Source: Glycomyces albidus (GTDB lineage: Bacteria; Actinomycetota; Actinomycetes; Mycobacteriales; Micromonosporaceae). From it: a DNA stretch of 64,000 bases. Where the stretch lies: NCBI RefSeq assembly GCF_009451885.1, contig NZ_WIAO01000005.1, positions 62,001-126,000 of the forward strand, read 5' to 3'. The notes beneath the pieces were generated by a model that saw only the letters and a list, made by a program, of their open reading frames with translations, was not told the DNA's origin and made no database searches. Below are positions 16,965 through 33,176 of this stretch, one piece after another (position 1 is the first letter of the stretch; each line of letters begins with the position of its first letter). The position numbers were made by a program, and so were the translations under genes.

Positions 16965-16989
16965 AGAGGAGGCGGTTCCCGCCTCCTCT
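16965..16989. terminator. Bidirectional terminator between conservon and acyl-CoA dehydrogenase
   Basis: A perfect 11-bp stem (AGAGGAGGCGG / CCGCCTCCTCT) with a 3-base loop is flanked by an A run on the left (GAAAAAAG) and by TT on the right. It can serve both convergent genes. Confidence 0.8.
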
Positions 16990-26288: not shown

Positions 26289-27539
26289 CTAACGCCAGCG
26301 TGCGATGACCGTCTCCCCGGCGCGGATCGGCTCGCCCGGGACGACCGCGGCTTCGGCGGCTCCGGCCGGCAGGTACACGTCGGTGCGGGAGCCGAACCGG
26401 ATGAGGCCGTAGCGCTCGCCCTTGGCGAGGGACGCGCCGGGCTTGGTGCGGTTGACGATGCGGCGCAGGACCGCGCCGGTGCGCTGGGCGATGACGACGC
26501 GGCCGCGCGCGGTCGCGACCACGGTGTAGCAGGCGGCGTTGTGCTCGGCCTCGGCCGTGGCGACCTTCGCGTAGCCGCCGCGCTCGGTGAACACGTCGAC
26601 GACCTCGCCGGCGACCGGTGAGCGGTTGATGTGGACGTCGGTGAGCGAGAGGTACGCGCTGACGCGGAGCCATTCGGCGCCGGCCGCGCCGGTGGCGGCG
26701 CCGAAGCGCTCGTCGGCGACGGTCTCGACGGCCATGATGCGGCCGTCGGAGGCCGCGAGGACCGCTTCGGGCTCGTCGTCCTCGCCGCGCAGGTCGGCGT
26801 CGCGCTGCGGGTCGCGGAAGAACGCGGCGACCGGGACGGCGGCCAGGGCCGGCAGGAGCCACGCCTTCGAGGAGGGCCGGATCTTCCTCGCGGCCCAAGC
26901 GGTCCCGAGGAGGAGGCCGGCGGCGATGACGCCGTTCGAGTCGAGGTGGACGTTCGGGGTGACCGCGACCGAGGAGGCGCGCCAGGCCGGGGCCAGGTCC
27001 TCGGCGGGGGCGATCGCGCGCGGCTCGCCCTCGTGCTTGGAGGCGGAGCCGATGCGGAGCTTGTGGATGCGCACCGGCGGGAGCGAGCGCACGATCAGGT
27101 CGGTGCCGATGCCGTAGTCGGCGACGAGTTCGGCGATCTCCTCGCGCGCGGGCGCGGTCAGGGTGGCGGCGAAGGAGAGGACCCCGCCGGGCTCGACCTT
27201 CTCGCGCAGGAGCGCGAGGCGCTCGATGAACTCCTCGGCCTCGACGGTGACCGGGGCCGCGAGCATGACGTCCTCGGCGGGCTCGGCGTCTTCGAGGTCG
27301 GCCACGGTGGTGACGTTCCCGGCGGTCCAGGAGCCCTCCGCGGTCAGCGACGCGCGAAGATCCTCAATGGAGTGGGCGTCGGCGACGACGGTGAGCCGGT
27401 CGGCGGGCATGAGCGCTTCGAGCGCGGCCGTCAGCACCGGGTTCCCCCAGGACGCGCCCACGACCAGCCCGGTCTTGGGGCCCCTCCGCCGGGCGAATTC
27501 GTCCGTGATGCCGCGAGCGGCGGCTTTCGAGATCGGCAT
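26289..27539 (-). CDS. psd: Phosphatidylserine decarboxylase with an extra N-terminal domain
   Basis: The C-terminal half (about residues 205-416) is a phosphatidylserine decarboxylase of the short type: DVHINRSP, a HNAACY segment, and the FGSRTD motif where autocleavage before Ser creates the pyruvoyl cofactor. It should make phosphatidylethanolamine at the membrane; hydrophobic stretches lie at about residues 210-250. The first 190 residues form a Rossmann-like domain (VVGASWGNPVLTAALEAL, then PGGVLSF) resembling a degraded SAM-dependent methyltransferase; short Psd proteins of about 215 residues usually lack it. No pssA gene adjoins. A TATAGT hexamer lies 7 bases before the ATG. Confidence 0.88.
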   Translation of the reverse strand: MPISKAAARGITDEFARRRGPKTGLVVGASWGNPVLTAALEALMPADRLTVVADAHSIEDLRASLTAEGSWTAGNVTTVADLEDAEPAEDVMLAAPVTVEAEEFIERLALLREKVEPGGVLSFAATLTAPAREEIAELVADYGIGTDLIVRSLPPVRIHKLRIGSASKHEGEPRAIAPAEDLAPAWRASSVAVTPNVHLDSNGVIAAGLLLGTAWAARKIRPSSKAWLLPALAAVPVAAFFRDPQRDADLRGEDDEPEAVLAASDGRIMAVETVADERFGAATGAAGAEWLRVSAYLSLTDVHINRSPVAGEVVDVFTERGGYAKVATAEAEHNAACYTVVATARGRVVIAQRTGAVLRRIVNRTKPGASLAKGERYGLIRFGSRTDVYLPAGAAEAAVVPGEPIRAGETVIARWR

Positions 27540-27546
27540 GACTCCG

Positions 27547-27552
27547 ACTATA
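27547..27552 (-). promoter_or_regulatory. Putative -10 for psd
   Basis: On the minus strand TATAGT ends 7 bases upstream of the psd ATG at 27539, compatible with a leaderless or nearly leaderless transcript. Confidence 0.5.
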
Positions 27553-27764
27553 GAGCGCGCCGGGGAATGCCCCGGCTTGCGCTCGCGTGTTGCGCGAGTG
27601 CAGAGAGCGGCCCTTGCCCCGTTTCGTCCTCGTACTTTCGGCGGATTCTCCACATCGTTCGGACGAGTGCCCGCGCCGCCGCGTCGGGGGCCCTCGTTTC
27701 CCCTCTTGAAGGCGGCCCCCGCAGCCCCGCACCGCAGATCCACTCCCAGGAGGACCGAATCACG

Positions 27765-28880
27765 ATGAGACTCAAGCCGATCCGTACTCCGCTCGCCGCA
27801 GCCGCGGTCCTCGCCGCCGCCCTCGCCGGCGGCCCCGCGTTCGCGCAGGAGGAGCCCGAGCCGATCACCGGCGACCCCACGGCCGAACCCGGCCTGGAAC
27901 TGCGCGGCGAACTCGACGGCGACCGGTACGACGTGTGGGCCAACGTCCTCGGCCTCACGCCGCACGGCTCCGAGGAGACGTACACGGTCTACTGCATCGA
28001 CATCCGGACCCCGCTCGACACCGAGAGCCCCTACGCCGAAGGCGACTGGGAGGAGTCCGGGGTCGCGAACCTCGAATCGGTCCGCTGGGTCCTGTTCAAC
28101 GGCTACCCGAACGTCGGCGCCGAGGAGCTCATCGAGTCGTCCGGCGGCGAGGTCAACCCCGAGTGGACCGACGCGGAGACCGCCGAGGTCGCCTACGCGG
28201 GCACCCAGGCCGCCGTGTGGCACTTCACCGACGCGTGGGAGCTGCTGAGCGACAACCCCGTCAAGGGCGGCAACAGCGGCGAGGACGAGGCCGTCCTCGC
28301 GGTCTACGAGCACCTGACCGAGGACACCGGGCGCGTGCCCGACCCGTCGGAGTTCATCGTGGACCTCGAAGGCGAAGCGGAGGCCGGATACGAGGGCGGC
28401 CGGTTCGGCCCCTACACGATCCGCTCCAACGCCGGGCCCGTCGAGCTCGAAGCCGACGGCGGCAGGCTCGAGAAGGCGAACGGCGACATCGTCGAGTCCC
28501 TCGAGGACGGCGAGGAGTTCTGGATCGCCATGGACGAGTCCAGCAGCGAGGTGACGATCACCGGCACCGCCGCGTACGACCTCCCGGTCGGGCGGGTCTT
28601 CCTCGCCACCACCGAGGCGTCACTGTCGGGCGACGCCGCCAACCGGGTGATCTCCGGCGAGTCCCAGAAGCTCATCCTCGCCGAGCCGCGCGCCGGCGAG
28701 GTCCCCGCCGAGTGGCGATTCGCCCTCGACGCGCCCACCGACGAACCCGAGCCCGGCGGCGCGCAGCTGCCGAAGACCGGGACCGGCCTCACCGTCGCGT
28801 TCGCGGCCGGCCTGGCGCTCCTCGTCGGCGGCCTCACCGCCACGGTGTTCGCCAAGCGCCGCACCGGCTCGGTGCACTAG
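27765..28880 (+). CDS. Thioester-domain (TQxA) LPXTG surface protein 1
   Basis: The 371-residue protein starts at the ATG after AGGAGGACCGAATCACG. It has a signal peptide (to about residue 27) and a thioester domain with Cys77 (VYCIDI) and Gln148 (GTQAAVW), the pair expected to form an internal Cys-Gln thioester that can bond covalently to a target. A beta-sandwich stalk follows, then a sorting signal: LPKTG at 335-339, a hydrophobic span and a basic tail. It should be anchored to peptidoglycan by a sortase; no sortase gene is in the window. It is a paralogue of the next gene. An adhesin or envelope cross-linking role is inferred. Confidence 0.92.
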   Translation: MRLKPIRTPLAAAAVLAAALAGGPAFAQEEPEPITGDPTAEPGLELRGELDGDRYDVWANVLGLTPHGSEETYTVYCIDIRTPLDTESPYAEGDWEESGVANLESVRWVLFNGYPNVGAEELIESSGGEVNPEWTDAETAEVAYAGTQAAVWHFTDAWELLSDNPVKGGNSGEDEAVLAVYEHLTEDTGRVPDPSEFIVDLEGEAEAGYEGGRFGPYTIRSNAGPVELEADGGRLEKANGDIVESLEDGEEFWIAMDESSSEVTITGTAAYDLPVGRVFLATTEASLSGDAANRVISGESQKLILAEPRAGEVPAEWRFALDAPTDEPEPGGAQLPKTGTGLTVAFAAGLALLVGGLTATVFAKRRTGSVH

Positions 28881-28891
28881 ACCTCGGGGAT

Positions 28892-28915
28892 GCGGACGGG
28901 CCCCGGCCCGTCCGC
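28892..28915 (+). terminator. Perfect hairpin after first thioester protein
   Basis: An 11-bp perfect stem (GCGGACGGGCC / GGCCCGTCCGC) with a 2-base loop lies 11 bases after the stop. No T run. Confidence 0.7.
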
Positions 28916-29001
28916 TGCCGCAGGAGCGTTCCGGACCACCTCGACCCGGTCCGGACCCGGGCGCGCTCCAGCGGCTCGCACATCGGCCCGGCGCATGATG
29001 C

Positions 29002-29040
29002 GGCCGGAACCGGGGCAAGCGATCCGCCCCGGTTCCGGCC
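29002..29040 (+). terminator. 15-bp perfect inverted repeat
   Basis: GGCCGGAACCGGGGC and GCCCCGGTTCCGGCC are perfectly complementary around a 9-base loop. It may be a second terminator or an RNA element; it lies 68 bases before the TATAGT promoter candidate. Confidence 0.55.
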
Positions 29041-29270
29041 ACTCGCGTCCCGGCAGTCGCGTCCCGTCACGGCCCCCGCCGCACCACCCCAGTCGATACC
29101 GAATCGTTATAGTGGCGCGCCTCCCCGAGGTCGCGCCGTTTTCGTTGCCCCGCAAGCGGACCACCGCTCAGAATCTCCCCCGTCCCGCGTGCAACCGGCG
29201 GGGTGCCGCTAACGTGTCGGAGGAAGATTCAACGCGTCAATCCCTCGGAAAAGCAAAGGGACTTCAACGA

Positions 29271-30374
29271 ATGATGAGCAAAGCCCTCAAAGGGACGCTC
29301 GCTGTCGCAGCGGGCACCATGCTCGGCCTCAGCGGTCTCACCGCAGCCCAAGCGCAGGACGAGGAACCCACGCCGTCGGGTGCGTCCGGGACCGTCGTCC
29401 AGGAGCCGGGCATCACCCTCCACGGTGACACCCAGGACCCCACGGCCGTCATGCTCGGCCTCGACCTCGGCGACGGCGAGACCCGCACCGTCTACTGCAT
29501 CCAGATCGAGGTCGGACTCGAAGACGACCTGATCCACGAAGAGCGCCCCTGGGACGACATCCCGGTCGAGGACCTCCCGCTCGTGCTCGGCGTCCTCCTC
29601 AACGGCTACGACGGCACCAACGCCGCCGAGCTGCTCGAGGCCGCCGGCGTCTCCGGCGAGACCATCGACCCGTTCACCGCGGAGCAGGTCGCCTACGCCG
29701 GCACCCAGGCCGCCATCTGGGAGCTCACCGACGGCTGGGCCATCACCGCCAGCGACCCCACCGAAGGCGAAGCCGGCGTCGACACCGCCGTCCTCGCGGT
29801 CCACGACTACCTGATCGCCGAGTCCGAGCCGGTCGACGAGCCCGACTTCGAGCCCTACTTCGAGGTCGACGACTCCGCCGCCGTCACCGACGGCGCCAAG
29901 GTCGGCCCCTTCACCGTCGCCACCAACTTCGACAAGCTGACGTTCGCGCAGCCCGAAGGCGCCACGATCGTCGACGAGAACGGCGACGCCGTCACCGAGT
30001 TCACGAACGAGCAGACCTTCTACGTCGAATTCGACGAGGCCGCCACCAGCAGCGTCACGCTCGTCACCGACACGATCACCTGGACCACCCCCGCCGGCCG
30101 CACCTTCGTGCCGGTCGACGCCGAAGGCGCCGACGTCGAAGGCCAGCGCCTCATCCTCGCCGAGGAGTTCGCCTCCGAGTACGCCGCCGAGATCGAGTTC
30201 GAGATCGTCGTCGAAGAGGTGCCCTCCGAGTCGCCCAAGCCGCAGCTCCCCGTCACCGGCACCAGCCTGACCTACGTCGCCTCCATCGGCGGCGCGGTCC
30301 TCGTCGCCGGCGTCGTCGCGATGGTGCTCATGCGCCGCCGCGCCGCCCGCGCCGACTGGGGCTCGGACGCCTAG
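29271..30374 (+). CDS. Thioester-domain (TQxA) LPXTG surface protein 2
   Basis: The 367-residue paralogue of the preceding surface protein has a signal peptide (to about residue 28), a thioester domain with Cys76 (VYCIQI) and Gln146 (GTQAAIW), an acidic stalk, and the sorting signal LPVTG at 326-330 with a hydrophobic span and Arg-rich tail. The same covalent-adhesin architecture suggests a tandem duplication followed by divergence, since the two stalks differ strongly. Two consecutive ATG codons mark the start. A strong hairpin follows the stop. Confidence 0.92.
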   Translation: MMSKALKGTLAVAAGTMLGLSGLTAAQAQDEEPTPSGASGTVVQEPGITLHGDTQDPTAVMLGLDLGDGETRTVYCIQIEVGLEDDLIHEERPWDDIPVEDLPLVLGVLLNGYDGTNAAELLEAAGVSGETIDPFTAEQVAYAGTQAAIWELTDGWAITASDPTEGEAGVDTAVLAVHDYLIAESEPVDEPDFEPYFEVDDSAAVTDGAKVGPFTVATNFDKLTFAQPEGATIVDENGDAVTEFTNEQTFYVEFDEAATSSVTLVTDTITWTTPAGRTFVPVDAEGADVEGQRLILAEEFASEYAAEIEFEIVVEEVPSESPKPQLPVTGTSLTYVASIGGAVLVAGVVAMVLMRRRAARADWGSDA

Positions 30375-30415
30375 GCAGAAGGCACCGCGACAGCAGGAGA
30401 ACACTGCGATCACCA

Positions 30416-30450
30416 CCACACGCCCGCTGGTCCGACCGGCGGGCGTGTGG
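30416..30450 (+). terminator. Terminator of surface protein 2
   Basis: A perfect 12-bp stem (CCACACGCCCGC / GCGGGCGTGTGG) with an 11-base loop ends immediately before the -10 hexamer of the chorismate mutase leader. Confidence 0.8.
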
Positions 30451-30456
30451 CATACT
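30451..30456 (+). promoter_or_regulatory. Putative -10 of the chorismate mutase leader transcript
   Basis: CATACT differs from TATACT at one base and ends 6 bases before the GTG of the leader peptide, so the mRNA is expected to begin at or next to that GTG and to be leaderless. Confidence 0.6.
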
Positions 30457-30462
30457 TGCGGC

Positions 30463-30531
30463 GTGACCCAGAGCGCGCGATTTTACTTTTACTACGGCAC
30501 GGACTCCCCGAGCCGTGGGTCGTCGCGCTGA
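30463..30531 (+). CDS. Phe/Tyr leader peptide of the chorismate mutase attenuator
   Basis: This 22-codon frame, MTQSARFYFYYGTDSPSRGSSR with GTG as start, contains five consecutive aromatic codons (Phe-Tyr-Phe-Tyr-Tyr, 30481-30495) and ends at TGA 30529. A hairpin (30498-30517: CACGG, A bulge, CTC / GAG, CCGTG) starts just after the control codons, and a very strong terminator follows at 30545. The chorismate mutase gene is 100 bases downstream. This is the layout of classical amino-acid attenuation: ribosome stalling at Phe/Tyr codons when charged tRNA is scarce should prevent termination. The AT-rich control codons stand out from the surrounding GC-rich DNA. The competing antiterminator fold was not resolved by eye. 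Confidence 0.8.
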   Translation: MTQSARFYFYYGTDSPSRGSSR

Positions 30532-30544
30532 CACACAGACCTAC

Positions 30545-30575
30545 AGCCCCGGGCGGATCCGCCCGGGGCTTTTTT
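30545..30575 (+). terminator. Attenuator terminator upstream of chorismate mutase
   Basis: A near-palindromic 26-base stem (AGCCCCGGGCGGA / TCCGCCCGGGGCT) is followed by TTTTT, the best intrinsic terminator in the window. It lies between the aromatic leader peptide and the chorismate mutase start at 30632. Confidence 0.88.
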
Positions 30576-30631
30576 CACGCCCAGGGCCACCGCCCGGACA
30601 CCGATCCGCATCCGCTCGCAAGGAGGCCCTG

Positions 30632-30895
30632 ATGACCGCCAAGACCGAAGTGACGACCGACGAGCTCGACGACCTGCGCACCGAGATCAACGCCATGGAC
30701 GACGAGATCATCCGACTCTGGCGGCGCCGCGCCGCCGTCTCCAAGCGCATCGGCGAGATCCGCATGGCCAACGGCGGCACCCGCCTGGTCCTCGACCGCG
30801 AACGCGCCATCCTCGAGAAGTACCGCGCCGCCCTCGGCGAAGACGGCGTCCAGATCGCCATGCTCGTCCTCCGGTCCGGCCGCGGACCGCTCTGA
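30632..30895 (+). CDS. aroQ: Chorismate mutase, AroQ class
   Basis: The 87-residue protein starts at the ATG preceded by AAGGAGG. It is a single AroQ-fold helical domain: LRTEINAMDDEIIRLWRRRA, then SKRIGEIR, with the conserved active-site Arg, Lys and Asp/Glu positions of that family. It converts chorismate to prephenate, the branch point to phenylalanine and tyrosine. It has no fused dehydratase or dehydrogenase domain and no signal peptide, so it is the cytoplasmic biosynthetic type. The upstream FYFYY leader and terminator indicate control by Phe/Tyr supply. Confidence 0.9.
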   Translation: MTAKTEVTTDELDDLRTEINAMDDEIIRLWRRRAAVSKRIGEIRMANGGTRLVLDRERAILEKYRAALGEDGVQIAMLVLRSGRGPL

Positions 30896-30950
30896 CGAGT
30901 GACGGCCGCGCCGGAGGAGTGTCGTACCCGGCGCGGCATAATTGATCCCG

Positions 30951-33176
30951 ATGAACGACCTTCTGACCGGCCTCAACGAACCGCAACGCCAAGCCGTCGA
31001 GCACGCCGGATCACCGCTGCTCATCGTCGCAGGCGCGGGCTCGGGCAAGACCCGCGTCCTCACCCACCGCATCGCGTACCTCCTGGCCGAACGCGGGGCC
31101 CACCCCGGCGAGATCCTCGCGATCACGTTCACGAACAAGGCCGCCGCCGAGATGCGCGAACGCGTCGCCGACCTCATCGGCGCGCGCTCGCGCGCCATGT
31201 GGGTCCTCACCTTCCACTCCGCGTGCCTGCGGATCCTCCGCCGCGAAGCCCACCGGCTCGGCTGGAAGTCCAGCTTCACGATCTACGACACCGACGACGC
31301 CCGCCGGCTGCTCACCCAGATCGTCAAGGACCTCGGCCTCGACTCCAAGAAGCACTCCCCGCGCTGGCTCGCCGCCGAGATCTCCCGGTTCAAGAACGAG
31401 CTCATCGGCCCCGAGCAGGCCGCCGCGGCCGCCGACGACGCCCGCGCGCAGCTCGTCGCCGACGTGTACGCGCAGTACGACGAGCGCCTGCGCCTGGCCC
31501 AGGCGGTCGACTTCGACGACATCATCGGCTCCACGGTCCACCTCTTCCGGGCGTTCCCGGAGGTCGCCAAGTCCTACCGGATGCGGTTCCGGCACGTCAT
31601 GGTCGACGAGTACCAGGACACCAACCACGCCCAGTACACGCTCGTGCGGGAGCTCGTCGGCACCGGCGACGACCGGGCCGAGCTGTGCGTCGTCGGCGAC
31701 GCCGACCAGTCGATCTACGCGTTCCGCGGCGCCACCATCCGCAACATCATCGAGTTCGAGCGCGACTTCCCGGACGCGAAGACGATCCTGCTCGAGCAGA
31801 ACTACCGCTCCACGCAGACGATCCTCGACGCCGCGAACGGGGTCATCCGCAACAACACCGAGCGCGGCCGCGAGAAGCGGCTGTGGAGCGACGAGGGCCC
31901 CGGCGGCCGGATCCTCGGGCACACCGGGGACAACGAGCACGACGAGGCCGCGTGGGTCGCCGCCAGGATCGACCAGCTCGTCGACGAGAAGGAGACGAGC
32001 TTCGGCGACACCGCGATCTTCTACCGGACCAACGCGCAGTCGCGCGCGTTCGAAGAGGTGTTCGTGCGCCGCGGCATCCCGTACAAGGTCGTCGGCGGCG
32101 TCCGCTTCTACGAGCGCAAAGAGGTCCGCGACATGCTCGCGTACCTGAAGCTGACCGCGAACCCGGACGACACGGTCTCGGCGATGCGCGTCGTCAACAC
32201 CCCGAAGCGGGGCGTCGGCGACCGGGCGGTCGCCGAGGTCGAGGCCCTCGCGGCCCGGCTGCGGATCTCGTTCCCCGAAGCGCTCCACCGCGCCGACGAG
32301 GCGCCCGGGATCTCCGGGCGGGCCCGGCCCGGCATCAAGCGGTTCTGCGAGATCATCGACGCCGCCACGGAACTGGCGAAGACCGCGCCGCCCGAAGAGG
32401 TCCTCGACCGGCTCATCACCGACACCGGGTACCTCGAAGGGCTCGAGCAGTCCAGCGACCCGCAGGACGAGGGCCGCATCGAGAACCTCCAGGAGCTCGT
32501 CGCCGTCGCCCACGAGTTCACCGAGTCCGTCATGCGCGGCACGACCGAGGACGACGAGCAGGACCTCGCCGCCGACGTGCCGTCGTTCCTGGAGCACGTC
32601 GCGCTCGTCTCCGACGCCGACTCCATCCCCGACCCCGACGCGCAGGAGGGCGGGGTCGTCACCCTGATGACCCTCCACACCGCGAAGGGCCTGGAGTTCG
32701 ACACGGTGTTCCTCACCGGGCTCGACGACGGCCTGTTCCCGCACGAGCGGTCCATGAACAAGCCCGGCGACCTCGAAGAGGAGCGCCGCCTCGCGTACGT
32801 GGGCCTCACCCGCGCCCGCAAGCACCTGCACCTGACGCGGGCCGGGACCCGGAACATCTTCGGGCAGCCCGAGTACTACGCCGCCAGCCGGTTCCTCGCC
32901 GAGATCCCCGCGGACCTCATCGAATGGTCCGAGTCGGCGCCGCCGCCGCGCGTCGTGAAGTCGAAGGCGCCCTCGTTCGGGCAGCCGATCGTCATGCGCA
33001 GCTCCGGCGACGTGCCCGTGCTCGACGTCGGCGACCGCGTCACCCACGACAAGTGGGGACTCGGCCGGGTCGTCGAGCTCAAGGGCTCGGGCCCGCGGGC
33101 CCAGGCGCGCATCGACTTCGGCGACGGCGAACCCAAATGGGTGATCCTGCGCCTCGCGCCGATCACGAAGCTCTAG
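30951..33176 (+). CDS. pcrA: ATP-dependent DNA helicase PcrA/UvrD type
   Basis: The 741-residue superfamily 1A helicase has Walker A AGAGSGKT at residues 27-34, motif Ia TFTNKAAAEM, Walker B VDEYQD, motif III GDADQSIYAFRGA, motif IV NYRST, motif V TLHTAKGLEFD and motif VI VGLTRAR. The C-terminal Tudor-like domain (about 680-741, HDKWGLGRV) is typical of PcrA and binds RNA polymerase in homologues. It unwinds DNA 3' to 5' in repair and removal of recombination intermediates. ATG 30951 is chosen over TTG 30942; CATAAT lies 8 bases upstream. The stop shares CTAG with the convergent peptidase gene. Confidence 0.97.
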   Translation: MNDLLTGLNEPQRQAVEHAGSPLLIVAGAGSGKTRVLTHRIAYLLAERGAHPGEILAITFTNKAAAEMRERVADLIGARSRAMWVLTFHSACLRILRREAHRLGWKSSFTIYDTDDARRLLTQIVKDLGLDSKKHSPRWLAAEISRFKNELIGPEQAAAAADDARAQLVADVYAQYDERLRLAQAVDFDDIIGSTVHLFRAFPEVAKSYRMRFRHVMVDEYQDTNHAQYTLVRELVGTGDDRAELCVVGDADQSIYAFRGATIRNIIEFERDFPDAKTILLEQNYRSTQTILDAANGVIRNNTERGREKRLWSDEGPGGRILGHTGDNEHDEAAWVAARIDQLVDEKETSFGDTAIFYRTNAQSRAFEEVFVRRGIPYKVVGGVRFYERKEVRDMLAYLKLTANPDDTVSAMRVVNTPKRGVGDRAVAEVEALAARLRISFPEALHRADEAPGISGRARPGIKRFCEIIDAATELAKTAPPEEVLDRLITDTGYLEGLEQSSDPQDEGRIENLQELVAVAHEFTESVMRGTTEDDEQDLAADVPSFLEHVALVSDADSIPDPDAQEGGVVTLMTLHTAKGLEFDTVFLTGLDDGLFPHERSMNKPGDLEEERRLAYVGLTRARKHLHLTRAGTRNIFGQPEYYAASRFLAEIPADLIEWSESAPPPRVVKSKAPSFGQPIVMRSSGDVPVLDVGDRVTHDKWGLGRVVELKGSGPRAQARIDFGDGEPKWVILRLAPITKL

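Follow-up and report, generated by a model that had tools for sequence, protein, structure and literature searches.

A Candidate Leaderless Attenuator with Phe and Tyr Codons Upstream of the Chorismate Mutase Gene aroQ in Glycomyces and Other Actinobacteria

Introduction

The chorismate mutase gene aroQ of Glycomyces albidus is preceded by what is very probably a ribosome-mediated transcription attenuator that senses Phe and Tyr via a leaderless leader peptide of 22 codons. It lies in a stretch of 64,000 nucleotides that was analyzed as a whole (hereafter, the window, to which all coordinates refer), and comparison with the DNA upstream of aroQ in relatives indicates that an attenuator-like element in this position is widely conserved in actinobacteria. 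Leaderless attenuators are already known in actinobacteria, as is a Phe-Tyr-Phe leader before aroF; new here are the aroQ target with its Phe and Tyr codons, the use of UUU, and a rule for the occurrence of Trp codons. The transcription start, ribosome stalling, antitermination, and a response to Phe and Tyr supply are proposed by analogy with how attenuators are known to work.

Results

The element opens with a -10 box, CATACT (30451-30456; this and all features below are on the forward strand unless stated otherwise), which was recognized by its sequence and is conserved both in the alignment of relatives and in the named loci described below. A 6-nt spacer, TGCGGC, separates it from a GTG at 30463, the first codon of a 22-codon frame that ends in TGA (30463-30531, stop codon at 30529-30531; VTQSARFYFYYGTDSPSRGSSR) and that was assigned as the leader-peptide ORF from its translation and conservation. 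Codons 7-11 (30481-30495) read TTT TAC TTT TAC TAC (i.e., Phe-Tyr-Phe-Tyr-Tyr) and are the putative sensor codons. An intrinsic terminator follows (30545-30576), identified by motif and fold, with a stem formed by AGCCCCGGGCG and CGCCCGGGGCT (30545-30570) and a T tail, and after it come a Shine-Dalgarno sequence, AAGGAGG (30620-30626, from sequence), and the presumed regulated gene, aroQ (30632-30895, ATG at 30632, 87 residues). A first-pass annotation of the window had listed the hexamer, the six bases, the GTG, the 22-codon frame, the FYFYY run, the terminator, and aroQ, and every one of these is found exactly where it was placed. We looked for a consensus promoter with a -35 box at the leader and found none; the start site was inferred from the -10 box, whose distance to the start codon is conserved, and the transcript would begin at or next to the first base of the leader start codon. 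A longer in-frame start at 30445 (28 aa) was rejected because it lies upstream of the -10 box.

Directly 5' of the -10 box lies an inverted repeat, CACACGCCCGC...GCGGGCGTGTG (30417-30449, no strand assigned), with 11 perfect pairs and more if inner bases are counted; it is also seen in the upstream flanks of members of the genus, directly adjoining the -10 box. It may terminate transcription of the preceding gene or act as an operator that overlaps the -35 region. In several families, the bases 5' of the -10 box read GTGTGGCANACT or GTGTGCCATACT, a conservation that seems wider than the -10 box alone explains and that perhaps marks an extended promoter or a binding site. An Rfam search of 29500-31500 gave nine matches up to E = 1, all under the gathering score of their family, and a known Rfam element was rejected as the identity of the leader since none reached that score.

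The product of aroQ matches CM_2 at 9.4e-11 in a profile search, scores above the cut-off for NF005894 and TIGR01808, and has the intracellular chorismate mutase of M. tuberculosis as its nearest structures (best, 1.4e-19). These matches mark the gene as encoding a chorismate mutase of the AroQ-delta type, in agreement with its first-pass assignment as an AroQ chorismate mutase. This enzyme opens the branch of the aromatic pathway that leads to Phe and Tyr, which places the target gene in the pathway of the amino acids encoded by the sensor codons. In the home genome (5.76 Mb), the leader and terminator sit between a thioester-domain ORF (28890-30374) and aroQ-pcrA. Two adjacent ORFs within 26631-30374 have LPxTG-like tails (LPKTG and LPVTG), the second also having the thioester domain.

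Both strands of the 64-kb window were scanned for a -10-like hexamer located 6-7 nt before a start codon and followed by at least four aromatic residues in five codons. The leader is the sole site that passes, against an expectation of 0.05 sites per 64 kb from random sequences with matched dinucleotide content (20 trials), and relaxing the scan to three aromatic residues in five codons brings in one further site, on the minus strand, versus 0.15 expected. Among the T-tailed hairpins found in the whole window, the terminator at 30545-30570 is the richest in G-C pairs (10/11), followed by a hairpin at 16965-16989 (8/11), so that its earlier description as the strongest T-tailed terminator of the window was apt, and the leader region 30463-30576 folds with z = -6.0. 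The presence of an aromatic leader and a terminator before aroQ is hence confirmed to be far above chance.

Conservation was assessed at several distances. The close set comprises 29 loci, the home locus included, obtained by an AroQ search in 61 genomes (the home genome and 60 relatives), in which the lack of a match in 32 genomes is not evidence of absence. All 29 loci keep the start, the aromatic run, the open frame, and a terminator. An AR-aromatic-run-G motif occurs in the upstream frame of every one, and the start is preceded by CATACT or CATAAT, in a poorer form in L029. From 28 of the 29 close leaders (L010 excluded) we built an RNA model, R1; of 150 genomes of the order, 80 have an R1 match at E ≤ 0.1. 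Matches with E < 1e-4 lie roughly 70-300 nt upstream of aroQ, save three (G088, G155, and G048) that lie upstream of DAHP synthase.

For the order sample, 150 genomes were searched with TIGR01808, which gave a match in 140, above the curated cut-off in 118. We read the upstream DNA of 137 aroQ-type loci (107 from the order sample and 30 R1 loci, some of them shared with the close set) and found a leader at 118, with typical runs such as FFYGYR (families f2, f4, f8, and f12), RFFYGTR (f15), and SFYYGHR (f16). Eleven of these leaders are degenerate (eight of f16, together with L106, L043, and L141; e.g., EFSYGHR, EFPYGRR, and RFAYGSR). A strict leader pattern is passed by 78 of the 107 order loci and failed by 29, and 29 of the 30 R1 loci show a leader, the remaining one (L087) being unreadable. 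L168 has a different aromatic-rich frame upstream, and L136 and L158 are doubtful. No recognizable leader precedes ten of the order's main aroQ copies, seven of family f8 and three of f4. Of 108 leaders, 96 have a detected terminator downstream and 12 do not. At the level of the class, 12 of 23 loci read have a leader (7/7 of f33, 2/2 of f46, 1/1 of f50, 1/2 of f28, and one in the home family), and none was seen in f32 (0/7) or in f36, f26, and f48 (0/1 each).

A third view came from the named loci, the best 80 of 514 by likeness to the home AroQ, partly from the same genomes as the close set; these best 80 include Glycomyces (the top 17), Stackebrandtia, Actinoplanes, Micromonospora, and Salinispora. 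In 76 of the 80, there are at least three aromatic codons in six in a frame whose start codon lies 6-7 nt beyond a -10-like hexamer, and the aromatic codon runs that the first-pass annotation expected upstream of aroQ in relatives are accordingly conserved both here and throughout the close set. It had also raised the case of relatives that keep the terminator without an aromatic run or an open frame, and this check mostly upheld its reading: the 29 close loci are all intact, whereas L241, L258, L267, and L288 deviate among the 80 named loci. L241 has two aromatic residues only (SFTY). In L258 and L267, both from Actinoplanes, the frame keeps only FF, because the T run is one base shorter and the Tyr codons fall out of frame. 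L288, which is without a leader, is the second aroQ copy of Actinoplanes italicus, the other copy (L239) having one. The spacing of 6-7 nt between -10 box and start codon is seen in 79 of the 80, L241, L258, and L267 included.

The strength of the terminator hairpin (-26.2 kcal/mol) would also suit a different reading, in which the short terminated transcript functions in its own right, as a small RNA or through a small protein, and a separate promoter downstream drives aroQ. This is highly improbable: the place before aroQ is retained across many families, the peptide tail is not conserved, and five aroQ copies are without a leader (L131, L147, L108, L134, and L150) where another copy in the same genome has one.

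The RNA between start codon and terminator is predicted to form an outer stem and an inner hairpin. The outer stem, P1 (30472-30529), pairs 30472-30481 with 30519-30522 and 30524-30529 when the window sequence is folded by itself and 30475-30480 with 30523-30528 in the alignment of relatives. Hairpin P2 (region 1:2; 30492-30518) pairs 30492-30498 with 30512-30518 in the predicted fold; a hairpin just after the aromatic codons, as first described, is therefore present, but it overlaps the last two Tyr codons and does not lie wholly after them. A candidate antiterminator (region 2:3; 30515-30544) is predicted to pair 30515-30521 with 30538-30544. In an alignment of 28 sequences of the close set, 98.4% of the cells in P1, P2, and the terminator remain paired, with six pairs changed on both sides, a number equalled by 0 of 500 shuffles; the antiterminator helix is 96.9% paired in the same alignment, with zero pairs changed on both sides.

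A wider alignment covers the remainder of the order with 60 leaders, drawn from 79 outside the close set after exclusion of nine listed rows, one duplicate, and any beyond 10 per family. Here, the counterpart of P2 is a hairpin that joins the Y-G-Y-R to the P-V-P-V codons, in which 93.7% of cells are paired, as against only 30-47% in slid registers. Its covariation score of 0.228, versus 0.107 in shuffles, was reached by 0 of 500, and 30 cells are changed on both sides, versus 7.5 in shuffles; most of these cells are concentrated in three pairs, and the number of pairs with two-sided changes (four) is not above shuffles (240/500). RNAalifold recovers 8 of the 10 P2 pairs. The RNA that follows the aromatic run, GCCGTAGGTCGCGC, is nearly identical in Glycomyces and other Micromonosporaceae although the frames read from it differ (..SRRSR versus ..AVGRA; eight loci compared), and since the region 2 RNA is kept while the frame differs, selection appears to act on the pairing and not on the peptide tail.

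These observations bear on the idea that the nascent peptide itself, ARFYFYYG or FFYGYR, arrests the ribosome, free Phe or Tyr being a possible effector, and that this stalling sets the terminator. A motif ..R-F-F-Y-G-Y-R.. is indeed conserved beyond the bare aromatic run, and the close-set leaders have a Gly after the run. The aromatic residues vary, however (FYFYY, FYGY, FFY, FSY), the residues past the run switch frame between lineages with the RNA unchanged, and the 5' side of the covarying P2 consists of the GYR codons, so that base pairing can explain why GYR is conserved. We consider such an arrest peptide very unlikely.

In the attenuator that we favor, RNA polymerase would start at or next to G30463, giving an RNA that begins with the GTG start codon, and a ribosome would load onto the bare 5' end and translate the 22-codon leader. 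When charged tRNA-Phe and tRNA-Tyr are ample, the ribosome would reach the stop codon and cover region 2 and part of region 3, the terminator would form, and transcription would end before aroQ. When tRNA-Phe or tRNA-Tyr is short, the ribosome would stall within F-Y-F-Y-Y, the 5' arm of P2 would stay open, and region 2 (30506-30521) would be free to pair with region 3 (30538-30544) and also, as long as the 3' arm has yet to be transcribed, with the terminator's 5' arm, leading to read-through into aroQ. If there is no translation, P1 and P2 would form and the terminator would close.

We folded the leader with a model footprint in which the ribosome was assumed to extend 12 nt downstream of the first A-site base. 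In ribosome-free RNA, P2 and the outer stem are formed and conceal region 2. A ribosome on the sensor codons lets region 2 (GUGGGUC) and region 3 (GACCUAC) pair, and in RNA that still lacks the 3' terminator arm the stretch from 30506 onward also pairs with the 5' terminator arm; a ribosome at the stop codon leaves the terminator as the sole structure. Hairpins 1:2 and 2:3 are mutually exclusive. When the 3' arm is left out, the mean number of terminator-arm bases held upstream in the 29 close loci is 1.8 for free RNA, 7.0 for the stalled state, and 0.2 at the stop codon, with an increase of >0.5 on stalling in 27 of the 29. Among the 96 leaders with a terminator, 76 shift as predicted and 15 in the opposite direction, and the mean of family f4 is opposite. 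Shuffled linkers sequester almost as many bases of the terminator arm (5.46 versus 6.98, 29 loci), only 7 of the 96 loci reach p ≤ 0.05 versus their own 30 shuffled linkers, and the stalled fold without the 3' arm (-20 kcal/mol) is not stronger than shuffles (z = -0.68).

Once the 3' arm is part of the fold, the probability of the terminator is about 1.0 whichever ribosome state was tried, and in the full fold hairpin 2:3 coexists with it. A plain equilibrium switch was therefore rejected, and antitermination would have to be kinetic, which folding alone does not prove. The first-pass annotation had called for an antiterminator competing with 30545-30570; region 2:3 provides a predicted candidate, but one that does not exclude the terminator at equilibrium. 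That the terminator forms in all states at equilibrium, and that pairing with its arm is rarely better than with shuffled linkers, would also be expected if the upstream ORF worked by transcription-translation coupling or Rho access, set by the presence or absence of a translating ribosome, with competing hairpins mattering little. A generic device of this kind, however, needs neither Phe and Tyr codons nor a covarying P2, and it needs no narrow distance between stop codon and terminator, whereas the terminator stem begins 11-17 nt past the leader stop in 70 of the 96 leaders (range, 5-26 nt). We regard coupling as unlikely and the attenuator proposed above as by far the more probable explanation.

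The sensor codons show a marked synonymous preference. We counted codons in 154 distinct leaders from 184 loci (close, order, and named sets; L136, L288, L258, and L267 excluded) and found that TTT (UUU) makes up 208 of the 289 Phe codons in the leader runs, TTC the other 81, and that 150 of the 154 leaders have at least one TTT in frame. In three genes of the window, the counts are 0 TTT and 48 TTC, and in 64 long GC3-rich ORFs from the 80 named loci they are 7 TTT and 893 TTC (7/900). The enrichment of TTT in leader runs has a Fisher p value of about 4e-153, calculated on rows that are not independent and with a control from the named loci only. The T-rich stretch may act by slowing decoding, by keeping a loop unpaired, or by making the polymerase pause.

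Similar leaders precede type I DAHP synthase in 12 genomes, and all 12 have Trp in the run, in addition to Tyr or Phe. Eight of them come from 30 type I DAHP synthase loci read, of which the other 22 are without such a leader, and four (L170, L171, L181, and L188) were reached via R1. By their sequence, they appear to be a sister attenuator to the one before aroQ. The loci with Trp and Tyr/Phe leaders in these 12 genomes are L169, L170, L171, L174, L178, L181, L188, L299, L301, L303, L313, L314, L315, L317, and L324. Trp is found in the run of just 1 of the 154 aroQ leaders (L156), and one more aroQ leader with Trp, L196, belongs to the class-level set outside the 154. Trp codons at the common entry enzyme and Phe and Tyr codons at the branch enzyme are what end-product sensing predicts. 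The match between codons and target noted in the first-pass annotation, Phe and Tyr before chorismate mutase, thereby extends to an added Trp before DAHP synthase.

We also read 20 stretches around weaker R1 matches: four hold leaders before DAHP synthase (L174, L178, L181, and L188), and no convincing aromatic leader was seen in the other 16. The gene downstream of two weak matches, L173 and L182 (E = 7.3e-4 and 0.053), looks like a putative threonyl-tRNA synthetase gene. In the home genome, a search for type I DAHP synthase gave no match, and neither the class II DAHP synthase nor the prephenate dehydratase has an aromatic leader within 600 nt upstream.

Discussion

Several known systems resemble parts of this element. 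The aroR leader before aroF of Corynebacterium glutamicum was reportedly described by Neshat et al. in 2014. Like aroR-aroF, the element described here would be an actinobacterial ribosome-mediated attenuator with Phe and Tyr codons before an aromatic-pathway gene, a likeness of codons and target and not a comparison of RNA structures; unlike in aroR-aroF, the target in the window is aroQ and not a DAHP synthase gene, and an attenuator of the aroR type was rejected as its identity. C. glutamicum aroF is preceded by a Phe-Tyr-Phe leader (PMC4046766), at which Phe limitation acts and Tyr availability does not (review, PMC11802643). The first-pass annotation held that a leaderless leader peptide combined with sensing of both Phe and Tyr at a monofunctional chorismate mutase is unusual, and this stands as far as the aroQ target is concerned, which is new, but not for the codons, given the earlier Phe-Tyr-Phe leader before aroF.

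The E. coli pheL leader has a Shine-Dalgarno site and senses Phe, and PheA is a bifunctional chorismate mutase. As in pheL-pheA, Phe codons lie upstream of a chorismate mutase gene, but the enzyme here is a small AroQ-delta protein, and the run has both Phe and Tyr codons. The pheL-pheA attenuator is named in the same review (PMC11802643).

A leaderless leader peptide, initially thought unusual, turns out to be ordinary in actinobacteria: the main text of a study of Streptomyces lividans TK24 covers the leader peptides LeuL1/2, TrpL1/2, IlvL, ThrL, MetL, and AlaL, seven of the eight being called leaderless there (PMC8079986). These too are short leader ORFs with codons for the amino acid of the pathway, but none of those eight, as given in that text, is for Phe or Tyr, and the word "chorismate" is absent from its main text.

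Another kind of actinobacterial leaderless short ORF that senses an amino acid is found in mycobacteria, whose polycysteine leaderless sORFs are said to have been described by Canestrari et al. in 2020. Such sORFs appear in PMC9094748 and are called translation attenuation in PMC13236596; unlike them, the aroQ leader has Phe and Tyr codons in place of Cys and is followed by a transcription terminator. An M. tuberculosis ilvB1 attenuator of the same logic, with further candidate loci in a figure, is also presented in PMC13236596. Rv0948c and chorismate have no occurrences in the main texts of PMC9094748 and PMC4128351 (the latter's supplementary table of attenuation patterns aside).

Leader peptides with terminators were predicted by comparison in the same phylum by Seliverstov et al. 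(2005), who list actinobacterial RNA elements for trp, ilvB, leuA, leuS, trpS, cys, and ileS; that survey states that conserved RNA structures upstream of phenylalanine and tyrosine operons were not observed (PMC1262725). The aroQ leader goes against this statement. In searches of the main texts of open-licence papers, we found no description of a Phe/Tyr attenuator of aroQ.

Taken together with the sister leaders, the findings allow a broader scheme, which we put forward tentatively and with somewhat less than even confidence: a two-level, codon-coded control of the aromatic pathway by leaderless attenuators, in which DAHP synthase would be controlled via Trp, Tyr, and Phe codons and chorismate mutase via Phe and Tyr codons, with the otherwise near-absent UUU in the chorismate mutase leaders sharpening the sensing in GC-rich genomes. 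The Trp rule would be a case of leader codons fitted to a pathway branch point, and with the conserved UUU one can ask directly whether attenuators are tuned by rare synonymous codons. The chorismate mutase of this group is controlled allosterically through its complex with DAHP synthase. If the model is true, chorismate mutase would also be under a transcriptional control that reads the supply of Phe and Tyr, in a group of bacteria with the aroQ leader that includes Actinoplanes, Micromonospora, and Salinispora.
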